Positions 12,053-61,966 of a DNA stretch of 64,000 nt are shown in pieces; the stretch's first letter is position 1; each line of letters starts with the position of its first letter. Source of the stretch: Polytrichum commune (lineage: Eukaryota; Streptophyta; Polytrichopsida; Polytrichales; Polytrichaceae); assembly GCA_950295325.1 (NCBI GenBank), contig OX485804.1, positions 6,758,001 through 6,822,000 of the forward strand, in the 5' to 3' direction. The notes beneath the pieces are model-generated. The model was not told the origin of the DNA and searched no databases. It saw only the letters and a program-made list of their open reading frames with translations. Both the position numbers and the translations under genes were made by a program.

Positions 12053-12525
12053 GTGGAGGGTCCGGTCACATATGACTTCACATTACACTAAAAATGATAT
12101 TTAGTGTTGTTACCACCCTATCCTGCCCAACACTAATTTTCAATTCTTTGATAATTAGTGTTAGACATAAATGCGCCGCCACCTTCTCTACCGCCACCTC
12201 CCTTCTCCTTTTATCATTGTTAACTCTTTTTTTCATAACTTTATTAACACTAAATTCGTGCATGTAACTTCCACACATTACTATAGTTGATATTTAGTGT
12301 TTGAGTTTACATTTAATGTTGCTTATTTTCGTAGGGTTAGTGATATTTAGTGTGCGTTCGTATTTAGTGTATCAAACACTAAATATCATATTTAGTGTAC
12401 TTGAGGATCCATGACCACACCACATGATTTTGGAGGTGTGTTGGGACGGCCTTTGGACACTTTCTTTTGGGCTCTCACACTTTCATGGTCACGGCTAGAG
12501 GCTCGTGTGTAAAGTGGCCCTTAGA
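12053..12525. mobile_element. MITE family A fragment, interrupted by a family B MITE
   Basis: The left piece, 12053-12085 (GTCCGGTCACATATGACTTC), and the right piece, 12400-12525 (TTGAGGATCCATGACCACAC to GTGTAAAGTGGCCC), are adjacent segments of family A as seen at 57304-57454 and 61816-61966. The 312-bp family B element between them is therefore a later insertion. The left half of the family A copy is missing. Confidence 0.85.
12086..12397. mobile_element. MITE, family B, nested in family A, 312 bp
   Basis: The ends are CACTAAAAATGATATTTAGTG and CACTAAATATCATATTTAGTG, with TA immediately outside each. Its length equals that of the 3943-4254 copy. It carries an open frame with no domain. CACTA-type and Tc1/mariner-type origins both remain possible: the termini read CACTA, but the flank is TA rather than a clear 3-bp duplication. 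Confidence 0.85.
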
Positions 12526-12526
12526 A

Positions 12527-13088
12527 CATGTGAACATGCAGAGACAATGAGGTCATCCATACCATGGTATCTGTAGGCGTTCACAAAAAAGATCACAAGC
12601 GGGCAGTTGTAAAAAGGACCACGTGAGATCGGGCAGGAGTGAAAAAAGGAGAGCGCCACGACGCCCGAGCCAAAGGAGCGTCTTGGTCTTGAAAGCCTTG
12701 GGATGTTTAGTTTTGTTGCAGATCGTCTCCAGAGAGCCGCTACGCATGCCTTGGACGGCCCCCGACCGATCTTGGAATCAAGGTACGTTTCCAAAGAGCT
12801 CGCTGTGCTGCAAGTTTCGACGAGTTTTCTCTCCAGATCCAAAATCTGCGGTTGCGGGGAGGGCAGGCGGTGGTAAGGGTTGGGAGCCGATTTGTGCCTG
12901 CTTGGGATTCGAGGAGTGGGAAGAGCGGTGTTTGTGTGGGGGGATATGGTTGGATTTTTATGTGGTGGGTGTGTTGTGAGTTTTACGGTTATGGGGGGTT
13001 TGTTTTGACATCGGGCGTGTGTTGGGGAAGATAGGTTTTCGGAACCGAACGCGTGGTTGAGCGTGCAGTTCAGGGTTTTTGTTTCGCG
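12527..13088 (+). promoter_or_regulatory. GC-rich promoter/5' leader of RHM
   Basis: This stretch is clearly richer in G and C than the DNA to its left, and the change begins right after a truncated MITE ends near 12525. It probably holds the core promoter and 5' UTR of RHM. A good splice donor, CAAG/GTACGT at about 12777-12785, with a possible acceptor CAG at 13071-13073, would make a leader intron of about 290 bp just before the ATG. This is inference. Open frames on both strands here look like GC-rich noise with no recognisable domain. Confidence 0.5.
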
Positions 13089-37660: not shown

Positions 37661-38631
37661 GAACCACAGTTGGGTGAGAACACCTTCTAATCTTCGACTA
37701 TGCACATTCAAGTTCCGATCAGTTCATTTACGGCCCAAGGTGGCTGGGAACATCTTTGTTCTGAAGTCCTTCATGATCTTCTTAAAGGAGTCGATCTTTG
37801 TTAAAGGCTTGAGAACTTGTCATATCACAGCAACATGTTATGAGTTCGAATTGTTGGCTTGCCAATCAAAGGGATGTTTTGAGCCATGTCATTCTTGAAT
37901 ATCTGCATTATCATTGCTTTTGTAGTAGGTGAGGCTCTTGGTAGGGAGCATTGCTGGAAGGTCCCCCCTACCAAGGGCCTCACCTTATGTAAAGGCCTGC
38001 AATTGTCAGGAGTGAATCTTCTTAACAGATATGAATGGTTTCAGATGTATCACTTCATTGACTGGACCTTCTGTGAACGGATGTCCATATCAAAGGTGGT
38101 GCAGGCAAACCACAAGTTAGAGTATAAAAGGTACAGGAAATCAATGCATAGATTGTCATAAATTTGTCAACATTCATACCTTTCTAATGGGTAAGGATTG
38201 GGTTGAATATCAAAATAAACTTGAAGACCAACAGTTATTATCAATTTGTTTACATAAAGAGTATGGATAACAATTATAGTGGACCAGTTCAACATCCCAG
38301 GTGCGTCTTGCATGGTTCAGTATGAGTAATGAACAGTCTAACCCTGACAACACAACACTTGATAACATGACACCTTGATTATACGACCCGTTTCTGGTGG
38401 ACCAAATTTTCTGGTGTTAATTTATCCTGATCTTATGACTATGATGCTGGTAATACGATATGTTTTAGGCCTGATTCATCATATAATAGAGGTAATCAAT
38501 TTCGTTCGGATTGTGGGAGTTTTCGTGCATTTTCGTTCTAATTTCAATAATTTTAGTGTTGTTGATCATGTTTGCACCAAAAACTTGCACACAATTTAGT
38601 AAGCACTGACCTCCTCTGCATTGGTTATGGC
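37661..38631. other. Intergenic DNA between SEC and the transposon remnants
   Basis: There is no recognisable gene. A short near-palindromic pair around AGGCTCTTGGTAGGG (about 37930) and CCCTACCAAGGGCCT (about 37966) would form a small hairpin. The rest shows nothing I can name. Confidence 0.4.
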
Positions 38632-38880
38632 ACCAGCGGATGTTTACAATGTGGATGCGATTGGTCCATTTTATTGTGTCCAAGTAAACAAGACACTAGC
38701 GCAAGGAAAAGTTCTTGGGTGTAAAACGCCAAAGGATTGTCTCAATCTTGCTCTTGACTTAAACACGACAAACACCAACAAGTTGAAACATCTCTACACC
38801 CAAGATGCTTTGGAAGGTGGTTGCCAATGCCACCACTTCAGTGGGCATCCCCCAAAAGCAACCCATAATCCTCTACCAAT
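38632..38880 (+). pseudogene. pogo/Tigger-like transposase fragment (DDE_1 domain), decayed
   Basis: The frame from about 38632 reads ADVYNVDAIGPFYCVQVNKT, then LAQGKVLGCKTPKDC and NTTNTNKLK. This corresponds to the family pattern NVDETGLFYR..P.KTLA, then a G.K.SKERLT segment and N.TGT.KLKPL. The first catalytic Asp is kept, but the E-T of DETG reads A-I. After a shift of frame at about 38785 the matching motif LHPRCFGRW follows. The rest of the domain is missing. The domain is that of CENP-B/pogo transposases of the Tc1/mariner superfamily. The identification is by motif recall. Confidence 0.75.
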
Positions 38881-39284
38881 ACTCTCACCTCAGATCCGGC
38901 CCAAATTACACAAAGGTTCACCAATATGATGACCTCAAACCCCTTCAAGAGATTCTCACAACCATCTCACTAAAACCCTCACTTAAGCTTTGCCACCGTC
39001 ACCACCGCAATGCACACCTCCAAAAAGCGATTTAGAATCCTCCACCAAAGCTCCCAATCCAAAGATGCCATCAACACTGTCAACTCAAATTTGACCACAA
39101 TCCCAAAAATGCTCATCAATATGCTGATCCCAAACCCCTTGAAGAGATCCCCACAAAAGCTCATTAAATTTAACCACTACATCTACCTCTCATACCAATT
39201 GACTTAATCCACCAATTCGCACAACCCGCTCATCAAAACCTTCACTCAAGTTGCGCCAACGCCAACATTCATATGCACGCCCCC

Positions 39285-39315
<31 letters not shown>

Positions 39316-40534
39316 ACACACACTCACATTGCAATCCACATCCCGGAAGCACCATTGGCTCAATCTATTTGTTTAATGTATTATTTATCCTTACATCACT
39401 CATCATATAACTAAACACAACATCCTCAAAGAGCCCAACACATCTATATTTTCTCTCATTCTCATTAGTCTCTTGATCCTCAAAACACTCTACACCAATG
39501 CCACAAAGGTACACACAATCACAAAAAATTCCAAATCCACACATAATACACATCACACCACCACCTTAAACCTGCACTAATAAATAGTCTCATATATATA
39601 TCCTCACACTCCTAAGTTTCCCCCGCATAAAAAATACCCATAGCATGCCCATCATGAACAACATAGCCCCCATCAATCCCAACCCACATTGGTACATCAC
39701 ACCCCACACAACACACATCATACATACCATCACTCTCCCTACTTCCCCACACACTTGTACCACACACACCCACCCCGCACAAATCATAACCTCGCCTATA
39801 AAGCACAACCCCTATCAAATCAATAACCGCATAATACAAAATAACATTACCTACATCAAATACCACTTGATTGAAAAAAAATACCTTCATAAACCCAAAT
39901 TAACCACAAATCATAAATCAATTAATAGACCAAAGAATGCTTATACTATTGGAGGCGGCATTCAACAAAATCCCAGATCACTCAAACACATACTTAAAAA
40001 ACCTTCCAAAAGAATATACACAAAGACAAAACCAATACTTCATGCCCAACACCCTAAGATTAAAACCACACTACTTGCACCTTGAAGACATTTTACCCCA
40101 TTCCTCTCCCCCAACACACATATGAACAATCATAATCACCTCCCAAACCTTAGAGGACATAGTTCCCTCCTATCAAAAATACCCACTCCACTTCCAACTA
40201 TATGCCTTTCATAACAACCATTAGCCCCATCCCTCACCAATGTGTCCAACAACTTGCTAGGCAACTAGATGCAAGGTGCCTTATCATCCTTAGATGACTT
40301 GAAGCCCTCGCATACAAACCTCTCCAATCACAATTGCCTATGAGTACATTAAACCAACAAAACACTCATGGCAAAAATATCACACCACAATAATTCCAAA
40401 AAAACCTTCCATTTATCCCAAGTCAATTGACCCACAAACTTATCAAATGCAGCTACCCCATAACTGGATTCATAACAAACCCAAACATTATCCTGCCCAC
40501 ACAGCCACCACCACGCATACATTTCTACATGGAA
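38881..40534 (+). other. C/A-rich sequence preceding the LINE remnant, possibly its 5' part
   Basis: The + strand is strikingly rich in C and A up to the endonuclease motif, the same bias as the LINE piece, so this may be its 5' UTR and ORF1. A roughly 35-bp motif occurs twice, at about 38923-38960 and 39118-39156 (CAAACCCCTTCAAGAGATTC, CAAACCCCTTGAAGAGATCC). I recognise no ORF1 domain. A C(22)(CA)n tract sits at 39280-39322. Confidence 0.4.
39280..39322. repeat. Poly-C tract joined to (CA)n microsatellite
   Basis: About 22 C residues run directly into roughly ten CA repeats. Confidence 0.95.
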
Positions 40535-42040
40535 CACAAGTCATATTTAACTTTAGTCTCCCATGCATTATGGAACTAATAGAAGACATACAAGACAAAC
40601 ACACCATTATTCTACCACAAGAAACCAAACCCTTAAAACAAAAATCTACCACCTACATAGACAACCGATTTTCAGAATGCAAAATCCTCTATAATCACAC
40701 AAATGACACAAATCTAAAACCCACAATTCACAACATTTGAATCCCCAAGAGGCAGCACCTTTGCCATGATCCACAAAAACATACTCTACTAAAAATATTT
40801 TCAAAGTCCCCAACACCAAGGAACATATCATTGACTCTACTAGTCTTCAAAATATCTAACGATTCACTCACACCGCTACTCATGATGAACCTATACATGC
40901 CCTCACATCCCACTAACCTCCCACTCATCCCAATAATCAAAGACCAAATCACAATTCTTATAAAAAAATTACCCTACACACAAAGTGATATTAGCACGGG
41001 ACTTCGATAAAGACATCCTCCTAGTTAACCACATACACAAAGGCATTCCCCAAATCCCTAACCAAGAGGACAAAGACTGGGCACAATTCATGCGAGCCTA
41101 GCCTTTCACCCCATCCACAATAATGAAATCTTCTCACAACAAGGTGGCCAAAACTACACCTCCACTAGCCTTATAGATGGCTTCTAGACCAACATCCTAC
41201 TTCACACCCTACCAAAATGCCAAACCTTAACTAACCAAAGTCAAAACTTAGAGCATTACCTAGTGAGCCTCACACTCAACTTTGTACAACTGGTTCGAAA
41301 ATCACAGCAGTCACCGAACTACCAACTAAGAATTACAATCATGGGTTGGTGAACTTACCAACATAGGATGGACTACCAAGATAGAAGCCTGCAAAATCAC
41401 TAGAAACTATAAGAAAATAATCACCAAATACATAATCATATTAAACAACAAACCCAAAACAATACATGACAAATTTTCAAATTTACCACCAATGCACCTC
41501 TAGATTGCCTCAAAGACACAAACAACCACATGCTTACACACTCTCAAGACATTGCCCAAGAAATATGGTGCTCACAACAAACCTACTTCCAAAGATAAGC
41601 CCATATATGTGACGACCTCCTGACCACCCGTCAACATGCCATTGTGTAGTCAGAAAATACCCCTAGCATGGCCTCAATGGCCTCATCCTTGAGGCAAGAG
41701 GCCCCAAAGTGCCACCTTATCCAAAAGAATCACAAGAGAAGTCTTCAATAATAGCCTCAAAAATCTAGCAAGAAGGAAAACACCGGGCCATGATAACATC
41801 CCCGATGAAATCCTCAAAGCATTATGCATGACCTTGCATGACATGCTCTTCTTAGTTTTCCGGCAATGCTCTCTCCAAAAGAACATCCCGGATATTGGAA
41901 ACATGACAAAATCATATTACTCCACAAATAAGGCATTTGGGCAAGTTTGAATTCTAATGCCAGCATCGATCTAAATTCGCTCCTCAAATACAAAATATTT
42001 GGATGCAAAATTCTCGTGGAAGAACTTGAAATTCATAATT
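40535..42040 (+). pseudogene. LINE (APE-type non-LTR retrotransposon) ORF2 fragment, decayed
   Basis: Several frames on the + strand carry motifs in the correct order. IIL(P)QETK lies near 40609-40629 (endonuclease L-Q-E-T). A degraded DFN motif followed by DILLVNHIHKGIP lies at about 41000-41050. TSTSLIDGF is near 41160, and LEHYLVSL, from S-D-H-x-P-V, near 41252-41275. ARRKTPGHDNIPDEILKAL near 41770-41822 is the start of the reverse transcriptase. Then, one base out of frame, come YWKHDKIILLHK and YKIF-KIL to about 42030. The catalytic Y-x-D-D part is absent. Many stops and shifts show it is dead. It was probably cut short at the 3' side by later rearrangement. Confidence 0.8.
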
Positions 42041-44867
42041 TGTACAATGTCCATTGTGGCGAATGACTTATATTTTGTGATATTCAACGGATGGTATTCA
42101 TGAGGCGAGAGTTAGAGGTGGCAATCATGTTGGGCAAGATTATAGGGTTTAGCATGTGTTCATGACGAGGAAATCATCATCATCATCATCATTGATCTAA
42201 ACTTGCTCCTTCCAATTTCCCACATTGCTTGCCACAAGGAGTATGCCAAGTCGTTTTGATTGCATCCCCACATCGCTCTCCCTCTTTTACTCTTATTTCA
42301 TTCAAGAGGATCAATGTCAGTATATCATCAAGTGATCCACACCAATTAGTATCATTTGTTATAGACAAGACAAAACTTATGTACATAGTGGATTTCGTCC
42401 ACGCTCACTGGAATTGAAATGTTGTCGGTTCCTCCTCATTAGTGACGCATGTGCATTTTGTTTCTTCAAATCTTTAGATTCAACCCTTTAAGCTCCGATT
42501 CAACTTGTCCGATTGTGAGCGTCAATATCAACATCACAATGTTACACTTTGTGTTATTCCATAATATCACAAGCTACACTAAACATCCATGTTAACACTA
42601 CAAAATTCCGTAACATCGCATGTACTTTGGTTGCCACATGTATAATACTACAGAGTTTAAAATTAGGGCCTATTGAAAATGGATCTCTCTCTCTCTCTAT
42701 CTATCTATCTATATATATGTGGAGTTGGAAGTGGTCGTTATGGTCACACATCATACCTTCAACCCCATCAAGTGGCATTGCCCTTAGCCAACCTAGACCA
42801 AGGATGAACACGCCGTGATGCCCAAAAAGTGACGACATCAAGCTTCGTGGTGTGGTAAGGTGAGAACCCTATGAAACGCGACATCTTGTTTACTCAAAGT
42901 AGGCGAGGGAGCACGGAAGGCTTTTACTAAAGTTATGCCCTCCTCTCAATAATGAGGATCATGCATTACATGAAGAGAGAGAGAGAGGCCCACCTGCAAT
43001 TACAAGTCCCAAGTTGCACCCAAGAAGCTCGCTCGAGCAGTGCTAAGGAAGACTCCCAAACTAGCTAAGCTTAACTTACCTCACCCAATCCATATGGCTG
43101 CTGAAATAGCCCTTGGGTCCAATGATGATCCACATCCCCCAAAAAGCAACGAGTCAATCAAGCCCATATAATCAGGGAAAGCGAATCTCTGAGGATATAT
43201 GGGGGCCCAAAAAAAAAAACAAAAGAACAAAAAAAAAGTAAAAGTTCCTTGGCCTTCACTTTTCCAATTTTCTCCTTTCGGGCCCTGCTGTCTACACATC
43301 GCCTTATAACATAAGGTTGAGGGTGCTTAAACCAGCACTTTAAGCTATTGCACGTACACACGTGACACGGCCATGTGGTTGGTGTAAAATACATATATTC
43401 ATCTTACGCCCTCTCCCCACCCGACTTTACCAAATAACCAAAGTCTTTTTCTAAAAATTGGGTAAAGCTCTCTCGGTTATAAGTTAGGGGAGGCATTCAA
43501 CTATCCCAATGCACCTACAAGAACTTGCTCCGGAGATTTTTGAGTAGGTTTAAGTTAAGTGGCTTTCACACATGCACATGGTTTTGTTTACCAAGCAATG
43601 AATGTTGGATAGTTTTTTTTGTCTCATCCCCAAATCCCTTACTACTCGTCTATCTTACCATCGGTTTTTGTTAATGAAGCTCCTCATGCCCTCATAGCTA
43701 AGACTAAAAAGCAACCAATCACAAGGGCAGGAGGCAACACTTTTAAAGGCCCTATATTCTTGCCTCATGTCTAGGTATTGATGGGAGGGTCGGTGCTTGA
43801 GGCTTAAAACCTCCACTTTTAAGCCATGCCACATCACTTGTCAACTAGGCTCGGCACTAGATAATGTCGATGATGTATGTGAAGGCCGGGTTTTTAGAAC
43901 CAACTTTTAGGCTTAGCTAAAGTCAGGTGGGGAGGGGGCATTAGCCTTTGGGCTAGACAAGGGTATAAAGAGATGAGAAATTTGTTTTCAGCCTCAATTG
44001 AATATTTGATGAATATTCAAAGTTGAAACCACTAGTTTACTTAAACCAATCCATAGGCCCCATATATGACAGCCATGGATATGATGAGGACCACACCGTC
44101 AATGCCGAGAACCAACACAACATAGTTGGGTACTTAGACCCAAGCTAGATCAAAAGCCCAACTAGTAATGATCTCGGGGGGGGGGGGCACTCCCTTGTAT
44201 ATTTTGCATACACCTGCGATAATGACCTATTAAAATGGGGGCTATTTACCTATGAGAAAGGATTATAAGGGATGCTAATTTTTGAAATAATGGTAAATTG
44301 TTGTGATTATTTGCACCCTATTGGTAATTATGAATTCTTGGATGGTTGATTTTATGGTACCCTATATTATTTATATGTAATTTTTTTCCCCTGATTGCCC
44401 CCATTCCTTAAAGTGTATGATACAATAGAATTCTCGTTAGAAGCACGTGTACAGAGTAAGAGAAACAAACATTTACTAGGGTTTAGGGTTCAGGGTCACA
44501 CTGAAGTCCGGGAAAAACAAAACACTAAACAATAACAACAAAAGATTGCAATTACATGTCATTAAGCAACACAAGCCAACGAATAAAAGTTGTGTTGGAT
44601 AGCACAGTTAGAAACCTTGAGGTCTTAGGGAACAGACCAACCACATGTGTCTCAAAGTCACATTTACAAGGTTTGCAGAAGCCCTACAATTGATGCCTTG
44701 ATCTTCCAATCCTACACATTGGAGGAAAATCCCACGCCATGCAAGCAAAATCCACCTAAACTAGCTAGGCTACCATTTACACACGTGGAAGATATGAGGG
44801 TACTCGAACTGAAATGACTACTACAGATTTCAAGGTATACTAATGATCATTCAGCCCTTCTTCCAAA
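42041..44867. other. Gene-free DNA after the LINE remnant
   Basis: It contains ATC triplets (about 42175-42193), a TCTC/TCTA microsatellite (about 42686-42715), a GA run (about 42974-42988), an A-rich stretch near 43210-43240 and a poly-G tract (about 44176-44188). No gene or domain is recognised. Confidence 0.45.
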
Positions 44868-45254: not shown

Positions 45255-46938
45255 AGTATTTAATTTTTGAAACTATCGCTTTTTCTCCATGCTATTTTAT
45301 ATGTACCACTTAGGTAATTTAATCATGTTTTGTCAAATGCTATATTACATATAATCATGTTTCACAATCCCAGAGCACCCTATACTACATCTAATAATTT
45401 TACAAATTTTACGCCAAATTTTTATACAAGACCCTATATTTTATCGCACGTAGTTCCTACAGTTTTTCGCTAGTTCCTACGTCGTTCATGGCACCTAAAA
45501 CTGTCACTCTGTGATTGTGGACACTCCTACACCATGGGGAACAGTTCAAGGTAGTAGAGTGTTGGCATTTGGGAGGCGTTTATAAGTGTTGGTTTTGGGT
45601 GGGGTGTTGGTTTTAGCACCCTCTACCTTAGCTCATATCACTTTTTGAACACAAACATCCACTTGAGGATACTAAGATACATTTGCCTTGCCCATACCAA
45701 GTAGTTTATAGGTATGAGTTAGAGTGTGAGTTGGTTTGTGTGCCTCAAGGTGGATGAGTATGTGGATATCTCAACTCTCATTTCCCACTAACCATGTGGG
45801 ATTATTCAAACCTTGATCACTCTTAAACTTCTAACAATCACCATCCTATGACTACTAGCAACCTAATGGTCTACCTTCAACACCTTGTGTGGATGGGCCG
45901 AGCACTCACAACTATGCAACTAGATAGAAACCCATTCTCACTATGAATAATCTCAAATTTGGTATTGGAGACCTAGCAAAGGGAATATATATATAAGAAT
46001 AGTCCTCGAACATTACAAAGGAGCTTGGGATAATAAATGGGAGTGTGATATGGCTTCCCATGGCAACAATGTGGATAGAGTGGAATTTGTTGTTTTATTC
46101 CAACATGGTTAGGAAAAACACAAACAACACTTTTGTTGTGTAAATAACACAATTTGAGAAGAAAAAAGACATGCCCAACAAAATTTTGAATTGGCAAACT
46201 CTTCCATTTAGAATTTATCTATGGCACACCCATCCATTGGCAAGGTGAAATTGTAGTAAATTATTCTATACCCTACTTTTGTTTTTGGTTCACTTCACAT
46301 TGAAAAACAACGGTAAATCCCAAATCGATCTACTTTAGTGGATCCAATTGGATTGAGTCAACTTCCACATTGTAGAAGTTTGTTTTTGTGACATTCAATT
46401 CATCCATGATGGATGAGTTTACCTAGACGCCATACATGGATGATCCCCATCCGTAAGGTGGAGGGGCCTAATTCAACTAGAACATGTTGGGATGGTAGGC
46501 CTCACATGTCAAGTGGGTTTTTTTGGCTTAATGGATTTATTGTAATGTGATCCGTGCGTGGGCTCTACCGTTAGTTTACAAGTTGCACTTGTATGGCAGT
46601 CAAGAAAGGTAGGGAGCTTCATGTTGGTTGAAAGTGGGGTGATTCAAGTACCAAGACATTTTTCCAAAATAGACATGAAGTTGCATGCTCCATCATTTCA
46701 AGCATTGCAAGATCACTTGGGCAAATCTTGGACCTCCTCCCCTTCTAGCCATCTACATCTCGAACAAGACCCCTTGGGCAAGAGAGACAAGGTGATGTTG
46801 GCAAATGTATAGAATTCGAGTGGAATTAAAATGACTCCAACCATGTTGAAACCACATCAATCGGACTTCATGCGAGTTATGTTACGATTGCCAACATGAA
46901 GAATTCTTATTATCTATCATGGTTGTATCAAGGACCCC
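45255..46938. other. Intergenic AT-rich DNA
   Basis: No gene or named repeat is recognised. Scattered short open frames lack domains. Confidence 0.45.
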
Positions 46939-47206
46939 AATAAATAAATAAATAAATAAATAACATCGGGCAATCCAACATGAGTTTGAGACTGTTGGTC
47001 CTACTCTGCTCAAGAATTCTCTTGGTGCAGGGTGGAGTTTACTGCCTACCTTGCAGTGGGTGGACTCTTGGCTTCCTACCTACCCTAGCTAGTTTCATTT
47101 GTCAAGTAGAGAGAAATTTCATAGCAGGAATTGAACCGCCAACCACTCCATTCCGAAATGGGTACCTCTCCACTATCACCTGGTAGTTTAGGGTCATCTC
47201 AGACTA
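46939..47206 (-). mobile_element. tRNA-derived SINE, copy 4
   Basis: On the minus strand it opens with CTGAGATGACCCTAAACTAC, then GGTGATAGTGGAGAGGTACC and a consensus-like B-box GGCGGTTCAATTCC. The body matches copy 3 over its full length. The far end joins an (AATA)n run at 46939-46963. Copies 3 and 4 define the full-length form at about 260 bp. Confidence 0.8.
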
Positions 47207-47804
47207 GAGGACCCCAACATGGTTAGTGTTAAGCACTTTTTGTAAACTAAACCTATTGATTAACTCACATACATATTACTTAACTACATCAATCTACATT
47301 ACTAACATCCTTTACATTACGCAAGAGATTGGTGTGACACAAATATATCTCACAAAGCATATTACAATGAATAAGCACGAAGGTGCACTCTACAACCATC
47401 ATTTGTAGTGACTGTCAATACCCGAGTAGCTTCTAGAAACATACGATATCATCCTTTTTCTACATACTAAACTTGAACCGAAACTACACTATTTATGACG
47501 TTAGTGTCACTTGCTATTTGAAAATACACAAATGCTATATATTTTTACTATTTTTTACCAAATAAAGTTGTTAACATTCTATAATGTCCACACAACCAAT
47601 TTGACATCATCTGGTAAAATATGAGATATACAATAAATAAATATGGCATTGCGTAATTCCAAATAGTAAGTGACATTAAAAATCATATTCATTGTAGCTA
47701 ATTAACCAACAACTAACTAATCCAAAAAGCATGTCCTAAACATTGTTCACTTTCCACCATTGGAACCCGCGGGCTGTGGTTTTGTGCTCAGGATAGCTTC
47801 CTAA
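47207..47804. other. Intergenic AT-rich DNA
   Basis: Nothing recognisable between SINE copy 4 and the family A MITE. Confidence 0.45.
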
Positions 47805-48302
47805 GGGCCACTTCACACACGAGCCAAGACCCATGACCATGAAATTGTGAGAGCCCAAAAGAAAGTGTCCAAAGGCCGTCCCAACGCACCTCCAACATCA
47901 TGTAGTGTGGTCACGGATCCTCAAGTGTCATGTGAAGTCATATGTTACTGGGCCCTCAACCAAATGCTAATTCAATGAATGTCTATTCATGCGGGTCCTC
48001 AAACATGATAGAATAGAATAAGTCAATGGTTGTTAGCGTTTGGAGTGCCATGGTCTCTTGGTTTTGTGTTAAGCCTACCTCCAAGAGGTAGTTTTTGAAA
48101 ATAATCCAAGTGACCATGAAATATGATTCATTCCATGCCATGTAAGAATCCATGTAGACTTTACATCCATCTTGCATTCACATACTTGGTTGGTCCCTCA
48201 GCGCAGTGTGAAGCAAACTTGGACCAACTCCGCCTTTTCCACCAATGGGAGTGCTTGAAGTGTAATGGTCACGGGCTCTCAATTTTGTGTGTGAAGTGGC
48301 CC
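47805..48302. mobile_element. MITE, family A, best-preserved copy, 498 bp
   Basis: The ends GGGCCACTTCACACACGAG and TTGTGTGTGAAGTGGCCC are inverted repeats, and TAA lies directly outside both (47802-47804, 48303-48305). GGGCC-type ends with a TAA/TTA duplication indicate a PIF/Harbinger (Tourist-like) origin. There is no coding capacity. It is nearly collinear with the copy at 53758-54233. Confidence 0.9.
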
Positions 48303-48821
48303 TAAGTAAACATGATATGACCACACCTGTGCACAAAAACTAGGTTTCCATCCACACACATATATAAATATTTCATATCTTGATTCAATAAAGAAAAACC
48401 AAAAGATCACAACATATGACCAATTGGACTTGGGAACATTAGGATTTTTGACCGATTATGTCAAAAAACATTCCCATGCCCACACGGTGCCAATCAGTGT
48501 GTATGTTTCACAAATTTCATTTGACATTCAACTTCAAATCCAAAGTGTCGTGTGTTATTTTAAATTCAAAATTCAAAGGGGAAAGAAAAGATGTGAACTA
48601 ACATCTACTTTTTCTTCTAAAATGTCACCTCAATATCACATGCCTAGTAGAACGTGTCATATTTATAACGTGTCAATTGACGCGTGGTTTTTTTCTTCAA
48701 TAGTCACACTACATGTCAAATGTCAACTGGCGTGTTTTTTGTTTGTGCAAGTTTTTGCATGTCAAATGTCAAAAACTTGCAAAAACTTGTCCAAAAATAC
48801 ACATTGGTGCCAATGAACGCC
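48303..48821. other. Intergenic DNA with short direct repeats
   Basis: The phrase CATGTCAAATGTCAA occurs twice at about 48713-48770, and GCAAGTTTTTGCA forms a small palindrome nearby. No gene is seen. Confidence 0.45.
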
Positions 48822-49176
48822 CCGGGCTAGATCACATCTTCATTTGGCTGGCCCTTGCCCCTCCCACACCTCTTTCGTTGCCCGGTCTTCCTGCTCGCAC
48901 ATGTGTGGGAACTTTTCCACATTGGGAACCAATGTGGCAATACCTGGTCAAAATTACAAATATTTCAAGTTGACATCACTTTCATCATTCCCAAGTTAAT
49001 TGATGGAGTTCCTTCACATGCCAAAGGAGCTTAATGGCTCAAGTGACCAAGTATTATCACATTGGTTCCCAACGGGGAAGAGGTCCCACTCAGGTGCGGG
49101 CAGGAAGACCGGGCAGTGAAGGAGACGTGGGAGGGCCGGGCAAGGGCCAGCCAAATGAAGATGTGATCTAGCCCGG
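48822..49176. mobile_element. Foldback element with about 115-bp inverted arms, 355 bp
   Basis: The outer sequence CCGGGCTAGATCACATCTTC is exactly mirrored at 49157-49176. The arms (about 48822-48945 and 49055-49176) stay complementary over most of their length, including GGCTGGCCCTTGCC, CCGGTCTTCCTGC and TTGGGAACCAATGTG. The centre is about 110 bp of AT-rich DNA. The arms are GC-rich compared with their surroundings. No clear target duplication is visible. Confidence 0.85.
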
Positions 49177-49508
49177 AGCCCAACGAACCAAAATGTCTGA
49201 AGAAAGTATAAATTTTACTGTTGTTTTTTTCTGTCAGCCCTCTATTATATTACTTACGCGTTTTGTGTCATACATCATCTTTCACTAATTTGTAGGTTCG
49301 TCTATTCTTAAAGTTGTATATATAATTTTAATAGAAAAAATGGGAATCTTCAGTGCATTTTGATCTCCACAAAATCTCTCACTCGATTGTCCCAATTTTA
49401 AACAAAATCTTGTGAAAAAACTCGCAGCATCTCCTGTATTTAACAGAGGCTGTCAGGACAAGAAATTTGACCAAGTTTAGACACAGGCAGGTTCTTTGAT
49501 CTTCAAAA

Positions 49509-49555
<47 letters not shown>

Positions 49556-50560
49556 ATGTCTTCCTTCCGAGGGGCCATCTCCTTGAAGTGGGCGTGTCTT
49601 CCTTGGTTCTTGATTCATTTGGCATTGGTTTCTTGGCTTTCTGTCTCCAACAAAATCAAAAAGAGAATTGTCTCAAAATTGAAGAGAATCAAAATTAAAA
49701 TAATCTTTGCAACTCCACTCACTGCGGCGAACTATAGTATTCCCCCGCGAGTTAGGTTTGTGCGCACTACAATGTATAGAAGGGTAGATGTGCCTAATAC
49801 AGTTAATCATCTTAACCGAACACCTATATTTGAGGGTATAATAATTATTGTATGGTTTGATAGTCAATATAATTGGGGGTGTTAATATGAGCATATAATG
49901 AGCATGAGAACCTTCACTTTGATAACGAATAAGATGTTCATATGATCTCTAAAATTATGCGGTAAGTGGCTATGGCCGTCTCGGATTGATTGTAAGTGTT
50001 TCATATCCTAGGAGAAGTGGACTAGCCGTCGGGGGGGGGGGGGGGGACTGTATAAGACCCATTTACCTTACTACTTTGGCAAACTTTTGTGGTCACTCTT
50101 TTAATTGGGATACCTACTTATACAAGAATGGTATATGGTAAGGTTTGTAGGTGATAATGAACACCAAGAACACATATATCAAAATATGTTAAACATTTAG
50201 AAGTCCAATGATAATTATTACAATTAGGAGTGCCTATGTGGTCACTTAACGGAACAAAGATTCTACGGTCTAGGTGCTTATAGCTTGTGCATCTCACCTT
50301 GAAACAATTATTAATTGTCATCCACCAATTGCTAACCAGATGAAACAATATCCAATCAATCCAACTATCAATATTGTTTGTAAAGTATATGTGACATTGT
50401 TTGTGACATTGGCAATTGCAAATGTCCAAAATTCATGCATAAATTCACATATACTTAAATCCTATTTTCTAGTTGTGATATACCTAGATTAAAAGATTTA
50501 ACGTTGGATTAAGCAAGGACTAACCATATATTGTTTTGTACTTAGCATGTGAGCAAATGG
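49177..50560. other. Intergenic DNA with CT microsatellite and poly-G
   Basis: A (CT)n run at 49512-49553 and a run of 16 G at 50031-50046 are the only clear features. The open frame starting after the CT run (about 49556-49885) has a short hydrophobic segment but no recognisable product. Confidence 0.5.
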
Positions 50561-51000
50561 TGATTGGAGACAAACAACTCCAAAGCACAAATTGGGTCAG
50601 ACAACCCAAGAGAGAATGGTGCACAAGGGCTAGACGACCCATGAAGAAATTGTACACATGAGTTAGATAGCTCGCGATCAAAGATCTTTGCATTGGAGTT
50701 AGACACCTCCCTTTGGAAGATATTTGTGTTGGATTTAGACAAATCTAGCTAGAAGATACAAATTGGAGTTAGACGACTCTCAACATATGAATGTTATTCA
50801 TTGGAGCTAGACAACTCTTAATAATTAAATCTGGTTGGAATCAAACAGTTCCAACTAGAAGAATACATGATTGGATGAAGTTGGAATTAAACAATTCCAA
50901 TTAGAAGCATAGATAATACATCGAGTTGGAATTAAACAATTCCAATTAGAAGCATAGATAATACATCGAGTTGGAATTAAACAGTTATAGTTAGAGGATT
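50561..51000. repeat. Degenerate tandem array of about 12 dyad-bearing units
   Basis: Units start near 50564, 50592, 50625, 50658, 50693, 50729, 50763, 50801, 50835, 50881, 50926 and 50971. Each has a core of the form arm-TAGACA/AAACA-arm: TTGGAG..CTCCAA, TTGGGT..ACCCAA, GGG..CCC, GAG..CTC, GGAG..CTCC, GATTT..AAATC, GAGT..ACTC, GAG..CTC, GTTGGAA..TTCCAAC, TTGGAATT..AATTCCAA (twice), then a decayed unit. The last units repeat at 45 bp and two are nearly identical, so this part expanded most recently. Read on the minus strand, cores give E-L-F-V-S, G-L-S-D-P, G-S-S-S-P, E-L-S-N-S, E-V-S-N-S, D-L-S-K-S. An uninterrupted frame covers the first six units (50542-50742). Function is unknown. Confidence 0.8.
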
Positions 51001-52489
51001 GTGATTGAGTTGTAAGATAAGCAAAGATCACACAGTGAAATGATCTATGTATACAAATAAGAAGGCTTCAATCTAAATTTAGTAAAATTGAGATTTCTAG
51101 AAGTGTCTCGTATGTACTATGGAAAAGATGGATAAGATTAGGAGTGCCTTTGGGGTCTAAAAGAGAGAGCTTGGTAGAGGAGAGAAAATCATCTTGTGTC
51201 TCTCCTATGGTCGGGTGGTATGAGCTCACAACAATCACAATATTGTGATTAAGTTGTAAAGCTTTTTGTAATGTACACAATTTAAAACATCTCGACATTG
51301 TTGTCTCATGTGCATTCATGTTTGTGTTATACTTGTGTAATAGAGGAACGTGACACTACCAAATTGATTGTTTCCTCAAAAACCCACATCACACAAGTAG
51401 CAATATTTGGCTCCATCATAGTTTTTGTCATTAGTCTTCAATGCACAAGCTAATTTTGGCCATGACAAAGATGGCAAAGCATGTCACTACATGAACTACA
51501 TGTGGGTAATTGTTCACATTCAACCTAGTCGCACATTTAATGTTTCATTGTTCCAATGATTTTAGTGTTTTACAGTTGAGTAGAAACTCAAGGAAAATGA
51601 TTCATTTTATTTTATTTTATAAATCGAGATGCTTGAAAATATGAACATTTGTGCGAAGGTGATATTTTAGGGTTACATAATTGGAAGTGTTGGGCATGGG
51701 GGAGATTTAAACCCACATCTTTTTCCTCCCAAAATTCATCATGGCAATTTTGTCCACATATTTGTAAGGGGGGTAATGAGAGAACCACATTTTGATTTGA
51801 TAAAGAGCAAGGTGGGAATAAATTTGATATTCCTCTACTGGGAACATGAACATCCACTCTCACCTTGTTCTCTAAAATTAAGATCCTCTAGGGAACAAAT
51901 GGGAACATTGATACACCATGTACACCTACCATGATCGTGAAGCATTGTTCCAATGTAATATTGTGACAATAAATCTCTAAAACATTAAGAATCACACTAG
52001 TAGGTATTTGCCCATGCGCGACCCCCAAGGCAACAACTCCCACATTTTGACATGGATATATACAAATCATGCATTCAAGCTTGATGATGGAAACTATACT
52101 AGGGAGGATCCACCCCCAGTGCAAGCCCACTGCAGGTTTTTGTTTGCAATAATTGATTTGGACGCCTTATAATGTATGGTGTCGAGGTTGATTCGCAACT
52201 AACTCGTGGTTTTGGCAACATTTTCACAATAACACAAGGTCATAACAAGTTATTGAAGAAACACTTCTATCCCATGCAAAAGATGGACCATGACCAATAT
52301 GGGCAACGTTAACAAATACCCCCTATATGACCAAATAACTCAAGATGATTCCATAAGACATTGAGCTCTAAGTCAAAATTATATTGTGTCGCAATTGTCG
52401 CTTAGCTTGTAAGCCCACGTCATAGGATAATCCAATGAGATGATCGACAAATATAACGGATCCATCCTAAGTGCCTATACCCACAAAAG
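51001..52489. other. Intergenic AT-rich DNA, no gene recognised
   Basis: Open frames on the minus strand at 51068-51319, 51612-51863 and 51888-52130 look no better than chance. No repeats are identified. Confidence 0.45.
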
Positions 52490-52740
52490 TGTGAAGAATA
52501 GGCGGTACTATGTACATTAGCTTCCCGAGTGTCAACCAATCTTCATATATATCCTCTTTAAAGTTGCGAGGACATCAACGTAGGTGTCCTCTTGGAGAAG
52601 ATGAGACGCGGTTACAAGTCAAGGGACAAAGTTGAGGGTCAATCGATCTCACGTTTACCACATGCATGAGGATCGAGCGAGCCGCCTTTGTCAATGCATG
52701 TGATGAAGAGTCAAATCATTTCACACCTCAAAGTAAATAT
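52490..52740. repeat. Diverged direct repeat, copy 1
   Basis: It shares an ordered series of blocks with 53365-53620: AATCTTCA, ATCCTCTTTAAAGTTGCGAG, a GGTGTCCT-type segment, AAGATGAGAC, ACAAGTCAAGG, TCTCACGTT and GAGCCGCCTTTGTCA. The two copies bracket the family C MITE at 52837. Confidence 0.65.
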
Positions 52741-52836
52741 ATAGACACGGTAAGAACATCAACTACACTGCATGCTCACACCTATCAAGTGGACTGAAAG
52801 CTAGTATATATGAACATGAATAAGTATGTAGAACTA

Positions 52837-53190
52837 CACCAAAAATTGTATTTAGTGTCACCGATCCTTATTTGCCTCTTGCTCAATATATACTATTTGT
52901 AACCCGCCCGTGTACTCTCACCGACACTTAATGTAAACCTAACACTATTTGTCGTTCCTTGTAAAAACATATGGACATTTTGGATGTACGGTGTTGCGAA
53001 TGTAGCCACTCACTAAGCGACTTTTTTACCCAGATTTCAATCGTCCGTGACGACATTTTCATCACGGAGAACGTTAGGATGCGTAATACCTCAAACTTCG
53101 TTTCGACAATTGGCATTCGGGTGAACTGAAAGTAAATCGGAATATGACATTAATCGTAAGCTTAACAAAAAGTTACCACATTGACATGAA
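52837..53190. mobile_element. MITE, family C, inverted relative to the 7157 copy
   Basis: It starts CACCAAAAATTGTATTTAGTG after TA, then shares TTGCTCAATATATACTATTTG, TGTAAACCTAACACTATTTG and GTTACCACATTGACATG with the other copies. The distal terminal repeat is not recognisable. Confidence 0.7.
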
Positions 53191-53364
53191 AGACCACGCG
53201 GCCAACTTAAAAACACTCCCCTGAGGGGCTGATCACACCAGCCACTTCTGGCACCATCCGTGAGCATCTCCGACTGTAACAATGTGAAAGGTGGTGGGCC
53301 AACATCTATTTCTAAACATAATCCCCAGCAATTTCACAGCCTGAACCAGACGGAAAGTTTGGTG

Positions 53365-53620
53365 TGATCGGGACACGAGTGTGTCAATCAAACAATCTTC
53401 ACATCCTCTTTGAAGTTGCGAGGGTGTTATATACATATATGTATATATATATACATATATGTATATATATATACATATATGTATATAAGGTGACACTTCT
53501 CCTTAGGAAAAGGTGAGACTTTTTTTACACAAGTCAAGGCCGAGTGAGGGGACGGATTCTCACGTTGCCAAATGAGCCGCCTTTGTCAGCGGTGTAAAGT
53601 CCAAGTAGACGACAACTCCC
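53365..53620. repeat. Diverged direct repeat, copy 2, with AT-rich minisatellite insert
   Basis: It carries the same blocks as copy 1, but a palindromic AT minisatellite (about 53428-53488) has expanded between GTTGCGAGG and GGTGACACTTCTCC. This pair could be a segmental duplication or long terminal repeats of a very short element. Confidence 0.6.
53428..53488. repeat. Palindromic 20-bp minisatellite, about 3 units
   Basis: The unit contains the palindrome TATACATATATGTATA and is repeated three times almost perfectly. It could extrude as a cruciform. Confidence 0.9.
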
Positions 53621-53757
53621 AACGTGGATGCTTATTAATTAAGTGACTTACGTGATCTAGTCATAGCCATGGTAGCTCAGGCTTCAGAAAAACCATAAGC
53701 CACTGTCCCTTCGGGCCTCGCAAACTTGGCCAAGGGTCCACCAAGTCAAGAGGATTG

Positions 53758-54233
53758 GGGCCACTTCGCACACGAGCCAAGGGCCGTGACCGTGAAATTG
53801 TGAGAGCCCAAAAGAAAGTGTCCAAAGGCCGTCCCAACACACCTCCAACATCATGCAGTGTGGTCACGGATCCTCAAGTGTAGTGTGAAGCCATATGCGA
53901 CCGGGCCCTCAATCAAATGCTATTTCGATGAATTTTTATTCATGCAGGTCTTCACACACGATAAAGTAGAATAAATCAACGGTTGTGAGTGTTCGGGGTG
54001 CCATGGTCTCCCAGTTTTGTGTTAGGCCTACATCCAAGAGGTGATTTTTGAAAATAATCCAAGTGACCATGGAACATGATTCATTTGACTTTACATCCAT
54101 CTTGCATTCACATACTCCGTTGGTCCCTCAAGCATAGTGTGAAGCAAATTTGGACCGCTGCCGTGTTTTCCACCATTGAGAGTGCTTGAAGTGTAATGGT
54201 CACGGGCTCTCAATCTCGTGTGTAAAGTGGCCC
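53758..54233. mobile_element. MITE, family A, 476 bp
   Basis: The ends GGGCCACTTCGCACACGAG and TCGTGTGTAAAGTGGCCC are inverted repeats. Flanking triplets are TTG and TTA, so the duplication has changed by one base or the end is off by one. It aligns along its length with 47805-48302 and has a small deletion where that copy reads CCATGCCATGTAAG. Confidence 0.85.
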
Positions 54234-55720
54234 TTAGCTAACATACAAGTTAAAGAGAATTAGCTCACAAAAAAATTAGCTAACTAAACTCATGGCCACA
54301 CCACCTACTTAGGAGAATAAGCTAACAAAGTGAGTTAGTGAAATCAACTACCGTAGAGGGTTCTCTATTCGAGCACCAAATAATTATTTTCCCCTCAAAA
54401 TTTGCCACATGTTATGCTCACACTCGTCACAACCCACTTGTATCCCATGTGGAAACTACATTCCGGCACACGTAATGATGAAATAGGGAGCCCTCTACGA
54501 TAACTCATATGTGAGCTAATCGATCACATGGTTGCACATCTTGGTTACCGTAAACAAAGGTTGACTAGTTTAAAAGAGGAATTAAGGTTGACCAACCACA
54601 ACCTTGCTCAACTTGCCCAAGTTTTGAATGTGACACTAATTATGATACATTATAATGATGTGGCTTGCACCATTGTTGTTTCACTGTGTTTAGAAAAATC
54701 AAAATACTATCATTATAATTAAATATATATATTTTAACTAAATTTGAGCATTGAAAATACCATTTTATAATTTGAAAAGTATATAAAATTAGGATGATGT
54801 AAGAAATAGTGTGGTCCACCTTGTAGCGGAAGAAACAATAGATGGGGAAAATGGAAGGTAGGCATTTAAGAAGAAGAAGAAGAACCTCGGGCTACTCATT
54901 TGTAAAAGTTAGTTAGCATTAGGGGTATGGATGAGTTAAGATTCTTCACAAAAGCAAGCTACCAAAAGTTAGCTAACTTCTCTTTTATTAATTGTTACTT
55001 AAACCTTTATTTTAACTAGGTGGTGCGGCCGTGAGATAGATTAGCTCTCCAATAGGTTAGCTACCACATATGTTAGCTAACTCTGGTAATCGGCCATTGC
55101 AAGCACAATATAACTAATTTGAGCTACTTGCTCTGACCGGAGCCTTAACCAATATGTGTGGTTGGACCCTAAGTACATTAAATACTCCTATTATTGTGGG
55201 TGGCAAATTAGTGTGGACCACACTAATTTTCTAGTCAAGGTGGAATTAACGTGGGTCCGAGACCCCGGGTCTTCCCCCAACTCTTCATGAAGACTTTTGA
55301 CCAACACATTGTATATTAACTATAGGACAAAAGTAGCACAAAGTAAATAAGCACCCATATTAGTTTTCTAAAAAAATATATTTTGGCCCATGTTGATTGA
55401 ATCCTATAATTTTGGTATGGTTGAAAATTGAAATGGCCCACATTAATTATCATTATGAATCTAGGATGGGCTCCAGAAAATTATTGTGGCTCACAATAAA
55501 ATGATTATTTAGTGGAGTTCCCATCAAATACTACTTAAGCTTATTAGCTTTATTAGGGTCCACTTAGTTAAGAGAATTAGCTGACTTGTGAGTTAGCGAA
55601 GATTAGTTGACTAAAACCATGGTTGAACCACCTAAAATTAGCTAACAATAGAAAATAGTGAAATCAACTAACTCATATGCTAGCTAACCGATCACACGCA
55701 AGCACATCCCAATTAACATT
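54234..55720. repeat. Region of dispersed AGTTAGCTAAC repeats
   Basis: Many copies of TTAGCTAAC and AGAGAATTAGCT occur. The stretches 54253-54550 and 55572-55715 share an ordered series: AGAGAATTAGCT, an ACTAAA..CATGG segment, CACCTA, GTGAAATCAACTA, GCTAA.CGATCACA, GCACATC. An inverted relative lies at about 54960-55090. They look like decayed copies of another short element family, but no clean ends are visible. Confidence 0.5.
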
Positions 55721-56967
55721 AGAGTAGAGGCGCCCATAACCAATCACTTAGGAGATTATGTGCCATATCTAGAGAAGTATGAGGCGGTGCAATTTTTTTC
55801 CCGTGTAGGAAGATAAAAATCAAGAGGACTGCAATTTTTTTGATAATTTCATTCCTTAAATTGAAATTTCTATGAATTTTTAAAGCCAAAAGTTGGCCCA
55901 AACGTATTATCAATGTCTAGAGTCTACCATAACCACTCATTCCTCCTCACTTTAGCACTCAACCCTAGAACATGTGTCATGGTAGTATTGGTTTCGGGCT
56001 TATTGAAATTGAGTTGCAACCTTATTAAAATTCCGGTACCTTATAAATTGCTGATGGGGCCATGATCAGGAATAGATGCCTATGCTATAACCAAAGGTTA
56101 ACCAATTTAAGAAAGGAGTTAAGGTTGATTGACTGAAGGTTTGCTCAACTTGCCAAATTTTGAACATCTATTTATATTTTAGAACAACTAGAGTTACCTT
56201 TATTTTTTGGCATGTCAAACCGTGAACAACTATAGTTACGAAAGGCAACTAGTTAATTAATAGTTGAATTAGTTGGTTAGTTGTCCAAGGTATGCAAACT
56301 TTCATCATCCACGTTAAATAAATTAGACCAAAAATAACATGAACAAGTAATGTCCAAGTGTGAACACAAAGTAATTAGGAAATTTACTCTTGAAACATAA
56401 AAGTTGATGCATAGTCTCTGTCCTACAAACAAAGCCAACAAAGTTTGACCATTCAATCCCACGGCCTCTCGACTTGGAAGGCCATAGTGTGAAGCGGCCC
56501 TAATTATGATATCCTATGAATTTGTGGCCCGGCCGGCACCATTTGTGTTCCATTATGATTAAAGTAAGATTTGTGCGCCTGTAGCGTTTGTAAATTTGGG
56601 TATGGAGGCCCTGCCATTTGACTCCCATGTTGGGTTGAAGAACACAATTGACTCATAACACAACTTACAAGAAGGAATTTACTTCTATTATTTATTGACT
56701 TATTTCGACCGCCGAGCTGGACCTCAAGGACTCATGTATTATATATATTCAAGGTGCAAATCATACACCGTTTCCTACCTACCAAGCACGGGATTCCACC
56801 GTTGGCAACATGGCCCTCAAATAAAATGATTCCTAGCCACCTAGCTACTATGTCCGACATACCTCCATATGTACAAAAGAAAGGAGTACGTTGTTTTAGG
56901 GTATTTAGTGTCACATACACAATAGTGTCACTTGCCCTATTTTAAGGCGTATGCTAGGTTACATTAA
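55721..56967. other. Intergenic AT-rich DNA
   Basis: No gene is recognised. A short family A end-like phrase, CATAGTGTGAAGCGGCCC at about 56483-56500, may be the stump of another copy. Confidence 0.4.
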
Positions 56968-57454
56968 GGGCCACTTCACATAGGAGATTGAGAGCCCGTG
57001 ACTATTACACTTCAAGCACTCTCATTAGTTGAAAAGGTGGAGCCATGTCCAAGTTCGCTTCGCACTACGCTTGAGGGACCAACGGAGTATGTTAATGCAA
57101 GATGGATGTAAAGTCTACATGGCATCAAATGGATCATGTTTCATGCTCACTTGGACTATTCTCATAAACCACCTCTCGGAGGTAGGCCTAACACAAAACC
57201 GGGAGACCATGGCACTCCAAAATCTGAAAACCGTTGATTTATTCTGTTTTATCATGTGTGAGGATCCGCGTGAATATAAATTCATTAAAATAGCATTTGG
57301 GTGAAGGCCCGGTCACATATGACTTCACACTACACTTGAGGGTCCGTGACCACACTACATGATTTGGGAGGTGTCTTGGGACAACCTTTGGACACTTTCT
57401 TTTGGGCTCTCACAAATTTATGGTCATGGCTTTTGGCTTGTGTGTGAAGTGTGC
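56968..57454. mobile_element. MITE, family A, inverted orientation, 487 bp
   Basis: The left end GGGCCACTTCACATAGGAG and the decayed right end GTGTGTGAAGTGTGC are flanked by TAA on both sides (56965-56967, 57455-57457). The order of internal blocks is the reverse complement of the copies at 47805 and 53758. Confidence 0.85.
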
Positions 57455-60300: not shown

Positions 60301-61396
60301 GGATATTTTGTTATACATATTATAGGGGTTGATTATTGTTCAAAAGTATATTTGTATACTTATGTTAATGACTATATATGAATGGATGTTTTTTTTGTGT
60401 ATACATATTATCACTTGTATATTTATTGTTGCAATTGTATGTGTATTACTTCATTTCACAAAAAATAACTTGTATATAGGGGGTTTTTAGAGGATGCAGT
60501 GAACGCACGTGATTCTAGGTTTTAATGAAATGTGCACCCCCCGAGACTCATCCAACATAAAATCCTTGAAATAGAGCTAGGGCTAGACACTGACCTCTTT
60601 GAGTTGGGCCCATGTCATTATTACGAAGATAAAAACGAGGTCTAGTCAAAACTCGATCACCCATACTTATGGTCAATACGTTTCAACTAGGACCATGCAA
60701 GACTAATGCAAAAGATTCGATGCTTATTCCGGTGTCAAAGAATGTAAAAAAAAAAAAACTTACACGCTATAGTAGAATTGACTGCATTCTCACATTGAGT
60801 GATGTTCATGGGGGCCCAACTCAAAGAGGTGGGTCTCTAGGCCTTGGCCTTGAAACAATATGCAACTTGCATATTACTATATTAATTTGACTTGACACTA
60901 AAGTTAATTTTAAACACCCTTAACTAGTCTATTGCAAGTCATTTAAAATGAATTGTTCAAGTTTTTATGTTGGATGGATGGAAGGTGTGGTCATATGCAA
61001 TATCTTAATCCCCTCTCTCTTGTGCAAACCAATCCTAAAGAGAAGGGAGAGAGGGAATTATTGTATATGAGCGTACCTCTCATTCATCTGACATAAAAGT
61101 CCTATAATAGTTTGTAGCCCATAAGTTAGTGTCTGGGGAGACTTTTGGACATAATCGGTAAAAATCCTCGTGTATTCAAGTCCAACCGGGTTATATGTTG
61201 TGATCTTTTGGTTATTCTTTATACACTTTGAGGCATGCTCCGCATATTCCTCTAAAATGACTAGTAATTCTCCCAAAGTCTTGAACTTCAACCAGTTCAT
61301 TAGCGGTCGGATCTCCCCGTTCATTGCCAGAGATCTACTTTTTTTTTTTTAACATTTGACATTGGAATCAGCTTTTAAGACCCCAAAGCAGTGTAA
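60301..61396. other. Intergenic AT-rich DNA
   Basis: No gene is recognised. A CCTCTCTCTTG..AGAGAAGGGAGAGAGG near-palindrome lies at about 61011-61056. Confidence 0.4.
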
Positions 61397-61966
61397 GGGC
61401 CACTTCACACATGAGATTGAGAGCCCGTGACCACTACACTTCAAGCACTCTCATTGGTGGAAAAGGCGGAGCCGGTCCAAGTTCGCTTCCCACTACGCTT
61501 GAGGGACCAACATAGTATGTGAAGGTCGAAAGGTGCAGTAAATCTATCTATCTATTTATCTATCTATATATTTTTCATGTTGTAATTTTGGACTCAACTT
61601 GGGGATGTAAAGCGCGCCTACATGGGTTCCTACATGGCATCGAATGGATCATGTTTCACGATCATTTGGATTATTTTCAAAAACCACTTCTCGGAGATAG
61701 ACCTAACACAAAACCGGGAGACCATGACACTCCAAACGCTCACAACCGTTGATTTATTCTACTTTATCATGTGTGAAGACTCGGATGAATAGAAATTCAT
61801 TGAAATAGCATTTTAGTTGAGGACCCGGTCACATATGACTTCACACTACACTTGAGGGTCCGTGACCACACTACATGATGTTGGGGGTGTGTTGGGACGG
61901 CCTTGGGACGCTTTCTTGTGGGCTCTCACAATTTCACGGTCACGGCTCTTGGCTCATGTGTGAAGC
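61397..61966. mobile_element. MITE, family A, inverted orientation, with internal microsatellite
   Basis: The left end GGGCCACTTCACACATGAG follows TAA, and the right end (CATGTGTGAAGC, with TGGC lost) precedes TAA at 61967-61969. About 90 bp not seen in the other copies, including a CTAT-repeat tract at about 61544-61568, lies at about 61520-61610 and accounts for the greater length (570 bp). Confidence 0.85.

Follow-up and report, generated by a model that had tools for sequence, protein, structure and literature searches.

A tandem array of dyad units with matched arm changes in a candidate solo LTR from apparent land plant DNA

The window analysed here (the whole 64-kb stretch of DNA) looks like nuclear DNA of a land plant. 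It carries a rhamnose-synthase-like reading frame at 13035-14711, with Pfam epimerase families and a C-terminal part matching 4qqr, a 3,5-epimerase/4-reductase, and, at 36591-37004, a stretch resembling an exon from a glycosyltransferase of family 41; we take these two families to point to a land plant. What are probably small transposons, a family of repeats each about 500 bp long, occur in five places and in both orientations (47805-48313, 53758-54244, 56965-57451, 61394-61965, and in part at 12399-12524), the main matches being about 84-91% alike; a MITE-like fold-back of about 360 bp at 48819-49179 matches its own reverse complement at 74%; strand asymmetry is strong across 38001-42000, where GC skew lies between -0.38 and -0.45, opposite in sign to 22-38 kb; and single-base runs of G or C occur at 21050-21066 (17 bases), 39280-39301 (22), 44176-44187 (12), and 50031-50046 (16).

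The subject of this report is a tandem array of 12 head-to-tail dyad units at 50564-50990, all in a single orientation, each a short inverted repeat around an AGAC/AAAC-like centre. The array and the features proposed around it are as follows.

50469 to 50473, plus strand: candidate 5-bp target-site duplication CTAGT, left copy
50474 to 51996, plus strand: candidate solo LTR, 1523 bp, with TGTGAT...ATCACA ends (suggestive only)
50564 to 50990, plus strand: all 12 dyad units in tandem, the loop core being AGAC/AAAC except for AGAT in unit 4
50564 to 50583, plus strand: unit 1, TTGGAG/CTCCAA, MFE -6.7
50591 to 50610, plus strand: unit 2, TTGGGT/ACCCAA (arms at 50592-50609), MFE -6.9
50624 to 50643, plus strand: unit 3, GGG/CCC core with outer CA/TG pairs past an A.A mismatch, MFE -4.2
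50657 to 50676, plus strand: unit 4, GAG/CTC core, MFE -4.3
50693 to 50712, plus strand: unit 5, GGAG/CTCC, MFE -4.1
50729 to 50748, plus strand: unit 6, GATTT/AAATC (50732-50745), longer with G-U pairs, MFE -7.4
50763 to 50782, plus strand: unit 7, GAGT/ACTC, MFE -5.3
50801 to 50820, plus strand: unit 8, GAG/CTC, MFE -2.2
50835 to 50854, plus strand: unit 9, GTTGGAA/TTCCAAC (counting one base beyond each end), MFE -9.6
50881 to 50900, plus strand: unit 10, TTGGAATT/AATTCCAA, MFE -7.9
50926 to 50945, plus strand: unit 11, TTGGAATT/AATTCCAA, same sequence as unit 10
50971 to 50990, plus strand: unit 12, right arm broken and dyad largely lost, MFE -0.1
51050 to 51061, plus strand: TATA-like TATACAAATAAG, 60 bp past the last unit (resemblance only)
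51997 to 52001, plus strand: candidate 5-bp target-site duplication CTAGT, right copy

The 12 cores were picked by eye from 18 AGAC/AAAC/AGAT matches in 50541-51010, so that both units and register were chosen after the fact. A covariance model built from the 12 units matches those 12, all on the plus strand, at E up to 10; at that threshold and with default filters it finds no further unit in the window, and a degenerate thirteenth unit suspected by eye near 50504 was likewise unmatched. The arm cores comprise GAG/CTC, GGG/CCC, GAT/ATC, and GAA/TTC, and units 9 to 12 form one recent group in which units 10 and 11 are identical. The initial annotation had described twelve units with a dyad around a TAGACA/AAACA-like loop and named the arm pairs of units 1, 2, 6, 10, and 11, all of which are present; it had also cautioned that the shortest arms might be due to chance, and aptly so: in units 3, 4, 5, 7, and 8 the Watson-Crick pairs of the core run contiguously for only 3-4 positions. 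Base composition is 35.8% GC with 6 CpG dinucleotides, or 0.44 of expectation. Two other palindromic stretches lie downstream: a 20-bp palindromic unit TATATACATATATGTATATA in three perfect copies at 53428-53487, and, at 54903-55082, a second small palindrome cluster with GTTAGCTAAC-like cores, by eye unrelated in sequence to the array.

Several identities for the array could be set aside. Centre-to-centre spacings are 27, 33, 33, 36, 36, 34, 38, 34, 46, 45, and 45 bp, and since these are not all multiples of three we reject a gene or coding repeat; nor, at E up to 0.1, did the array match any Pfam domain when 50400-51502 was scanned in six frames. A single sub-cutoff match, to PF13054, lies on the minus strand within 45601-50596 (E 0.0018, with 18.6 bits where the cut-off is 26.9). 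No Rfam family reaches its gathering score within the window, no tRNA was found, and no relatives turned up in a plasmid collection, which is not expected to hold plant DNA.

Pairing between the arms exceeds chance. When the arms are read without gaps, 81 of 96 cells (8 pairs in each of 12 units) pair, 69 of them by Watson-Crick and 12 by G-U pairs, with 6 A-C and 9 other combinations making up the rest; in the inner core (positions 3-5) 35 of 36 cells are paired. Over 4000 column shuffles the mean was 55.6 Watson-Crick cells, or 70.3 with G-U included. With the recent group left out, units 1-8 still pair in 51 of 64 cells against 44.4 (G-U included, p 0.005), and in the weakest of twelve settings (units 1-8, positions 1-7, Watson-Crick only) 38 of 56 cells pair, with p 0.04, or 0.06 if whole arms are dealt. 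A dedicated pair count over the 11 distinct rows gives 83.0% of cells paired against 71.9% after shuffling, a level reached by 0 of 500 shuffles; the next best register pairs only 54.5%.

Predicted folding agrees with these counts. Summed over the 12 cores, the energies of 24-nt hairpins come to -66.6 kcal/mol, compared with -4.3 to -15.9 when the register is offset by 6-18 nt, and the fold of 471 nt as a whole has z = -5.4, a value to which none of 100 shuffles fell. The array contains 11 hairpins of -4 kcal/mol or below, a figure matched by none of 410 windows with GC below 42% and by 3% of all 578 windows compared, while the 7 hairpins at -5 kcal/mol are reached by 11% of the 578. Strand preference is not clear: the hairpin energies are -66.6 on the plus and -58.8 on the minus strand, and G-U cells number 12 against 6 A-C cells.

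The initial annotation had staked its claim beforehand on covariation in excess of shuffled alignments, and that excess was found: the covariation score is 0.493 compared with 0.272 after shuffling, with 0 of 500 shuffles reaching it, and it also holds against other column pairs that share its history. Counts of particular kinds of change are less decisive, as 116 of 500 shuffles reach the 5 column pairs with double-sided change, and 194 of 500 reach the observed number of further pair types. Column shuffles ignore descent, and we therefore simulated independent change on three trees (3000 runs each), starting from a perfect palindrome and using the observed number of changes per column. Against these tree-aware nulls, i) pairing stands out both for Watson-Crick pairs (p ≤0.0027) and with G-U included (p ≤0.0017); ii) core pairs stand out as well (p 0.0007 to 0.006); iii) extra pair types do so more weakly (p 0.02 to 0.05); and iv) positions with double-sided change fall short of significance (p 0.05 to 0.09). 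Tree-aware nulls thus give clear support to excess pairing and only marginal support to double-sided swaps.

A control over all 136 column pairs at least 4 columns apart, corrected for background, puts predicted pairs 6-15, 5-16, and 3-18 at ranks 1, 3, and 8, while the other five predicted pairs rank lower than eighth; taken together, the predicted pairs covary more than the remaining column pairs (rank test, p 0.0003), and in a 32-column alignment 6-15 and 5-16 rank 1 and 5 of 406. Arm position 3 is paired in 12 of 12 units yet is variously G-C, A-T, and T-A, and units 2 and 3 share a G-C pair at position 4 or, if gaps are allowed, a paired loss; in the gapped reading, unit 2 has lost one A and one T as a pair. 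Because units 9-12 are a recent group that includes two identical members, independent events are few, some 4-6 by our reading, and the covariation, while real, is based on few events. Taken as a sign of structured RNA, paired-column covariation beyond shared ancestry is present here in the pairing and in the ranking, the double-sided counts being marginal or non-significant.

Conservation is uneven along the units. Of the parts measured in units 1-10, pairwise identity is highest in the four-base centre (83%), compared with 71% at arm positions 3-5 and 42% at positions 6-8, although the GA...TC of the arms (columns 4, 5, 16, and 17) is about as conserved as the centre. In a gapped alignment of the same units, whole dyads stand further above their shuffles (0.683 versus 0.517, sd 0.012) than do the spacers (0.669 versus 0.614, sd 0.016), which at about 3 sd above their own shuffles have themselves kept some kinship. 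If a hairpin were recognised by its loop, one would expect a fixed centre flanked by swapped but matched arms, as seen here, although this argument falls short of proof.

The sequence around the array suggests a setting. Searching there for TG...CA ends flanked by a 5-bp duplication yielded 14 candidates, of which 50474-51996 was best: it combines TG...CA ends and a 6-bp terminal inverted repeat with CTAGT on both sides, a signature equalled by chance in 4 of 109 overlapping placements slid along the window and in 6% of 600 Markov sequences. The array would occupy positions 91-517 of this candidate LTR and the TATA-like site position 577; that site was first noticed by eye and its form then added to the search pattern, and the form itself, TATACAAA, is common, with 5 occurrences in the window. 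A 21-bp direct repeat (50223-50243 and 51137-51157; 90% alike, 914 bp apart) counts against the candidate, one copy lying outside the proposed left border and the other inside. The 14 candidates, each with a target duplication, do not include an LTR end near 51398 that we had at first suspected by eye, and we also rejected a DNA transposon whose terminal inverted repeats would flank the array, as 49400-52900 yielded no inverted repeat of at least 16.

No second LTR was found in the window, the region being free of self-matches of at least 40 bases except inside the array, and we reject a two-LTR element within it. Six-frame Pfam scans of 45600-50597, 50400-51502, and 51400-56397 (E up to 0.1) recovered no retroelement protein domain, a result in keeping with a solo LTR, though weak as evidence, and the best match to an iMet primer site in 51001-53500 (9 of 12, at 51216) falls inside the candidate LTR; a solo LTR would in any case lack both gag-pol and the PBS junction. 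The sequence suggests, and is consistent with, though it does not prove, an array that is the U3 part of an old solo LTR and lies in promoter position ahead of the TATA-like site. The initial annotation had proposed no setting; the likely one is a candidate solo LTR in which the boxes form a U3-like cluster ahead of the TATA-like site.

Our preferred reading, to which we give a probability of roughly 40%, is that the units are boxes in the U3-like part of an LTR whose paired arms were kept as hairpins while the element family was active. An old LTR retroelement, now probably a solo LTR, would have had dyad-symmetric boxes tandemly amplified in its U3-like part, as a cluster just upstream of the TATA-like site. 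While the family was active, each box would have been kept as a short hairpin with its AGAC/AAAC centre fixed, but an arm base could be exchanged provided that its partner matched, so that the stems would drift and yet stay paired around an unchanged centre. On this reading selection on a folded form maintained the pairing, and the form most likely was selected during element activity; the simplest candidate is an RNA hairpin, formed in the copy of U3 that the element transcript would have at its 3′ end, and a less simple one is a DNA hairpin, single-stranded or cruciform. The initial annotation had offered selection on a folded form or a copying process that restores palindromes, and is partly supported.

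That copying process is the main rival. In template-switch repair a polymerase copies one arm of an inverted repeat from the other, and mutations in one arm would then spread to its partner without selection. Passages of PMC8604942 document that template switching homogenises the arms of short inverted repeats, and those of PMC8794818 that it can yield compensatory changes; the former also credit it with the greater conservation of short inverted repeats relative to their surroundings in bacterial non-coding DNA, and for that reason the conservation of the dyads reported above is not proof of selection. The paired loss in unit 2, with one base missing from each arm, could be explained by one copying event after the first loss. 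Yet template switching alone does not account for an AGAC/AAAC centre more conserved than any other part measured, and the A.A or G.T mismatches that units 3 and 6 hold between matched pairs are at odds with a contiguous copy, which should give perfect arms. Inverted centres, TTGTCTAA or TTGTTTAA, are absent from the array, but this is a weak point against template switching, both because the units were chosen by their centre and because loop inversions with compensatory changes are extremely rare according to passages of PMC8794818. On balance we regard template switching as the source of the pairing as doubtful.

It is also possible, but unlikely, that the dyads were never folded, and that inverted half-sites (TTGGA...TCCAA) were bound as duplex by a dimeric plant transcription factor. 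Such a role would suit the position of the array ahead of a TATA-like site, the conservation of GA...TC at nearly the level of the centre, and the discussion of Sirevirus palindromic boxes as factor-binding sites in passages of PMC2829016; a dimer site, however, should retain its half-sites while its centre drifts, whereas in these units it is the centre that is conserved, and three pair types occur at arm position 3.

A degenerate minisatellite from one palindromic ancestor, in which pairing is left over from descent and the swaps are a few events seen with hindsight, has in its favour the small number of independent events, the non-significance of double-sided counts taken alone, the recent copying among units 9-12, and the choice of units and register after the fact, but is improbable given that tree-aware nulls begun from a perfect palindrome yield less pairing than observed and that predicted pairs take the first and third places among column pairs with a common history.

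To return to hairpins kept during element activity, one can imagine a more specific version in which twelve RNA hairpins with a fixed loop and matched, swapped stems make up a multi-site landing array for a loop-reading protein on the element transcript, with packaging or export as examples of a possible role; we consider this quite unlikely.

What the array means differs between the two leading explanations. If the pairing was selected, the array would serve as a built-in alignment, with many versions of a hairpin in one stretch, from which structure could be inferred without relatives; if it arose by template switching, the array would document, in tandem, how that mutation process has acted on plant DNA.

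Among known systems, arrays of the CsrB/RsmZ type, in which a single RNA bears multiple hairpins that differ in their stems but have a common loop motif, would work alike; these arrays are bacterial, and we use them as a working likeness only and claim no relation. Hairpins maintained by template switching (Monttinen and Loytynoja 2022, PMC8794818) resemble the units in having paired changes that keep the stems, but in passages of that paper they are described in RNA genes across species, whereas the array is a tandem repeat. Tnt1-type elements (PMC3601003) share tandem repeats in the U3 of a plant LTR, and covariation is not mentioned in the passages of that paper at hand, where 'compensatory' and 'palindrom' occur 0 times. 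Among the papers listed by our literature searches, as judged by titles and the openings of abstracts, none describes covarying arms inside one LTR box array.

The fullest comparison is with the repeated motifs (RM boxes) of Sirevirus LTRs, as described in passages of Bousios et al. 2010 (PMC2829016). There, 13 Sireviruses carry 3-14 palindromic boxes in the 3′ LTR; 117 of 127 boxes lie in its upper half, ahead of the TATA box; clusters begin 200-400 bp into the LTR and form CpG islands; a CGG-CCG core is found in 12 of the 13 motifs; and motifs within one element are mostly >85% alike (range 66.5-100%). The array is similar in that i) it consists of multiple short palindromic boxes, here 12 units of which one is largely broken; ii) it would have the same layout, in the upstream half of a long candidate LTR and before TATACAAATAAG at 51050, which only resembles a TATA box; and iii) bases intervene between the arms, as in some Sirevirus boxes. 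It is dissimilar in that i) the CGG-CCG core is absent; ii) at 36% GC and 0.44 of the expected CpG (judged from a count of 6 CpG) it contrasts with the Sirevirus CpG islands; iii) it starts at position 91 of the candidate LTR; iv) its arms vary with matched changes; and v) no gag-pol domain or Sirevirus junction was found here. Because the core, the CpG richness, and any Sirevirus gene or junction are all absent, we do not file the array as a Sirevirus member. The array resembles the palindromic control boxes of some plant LTR retrotransposons, and what stands out against known box clusters is its unusual record of matched arm changes.
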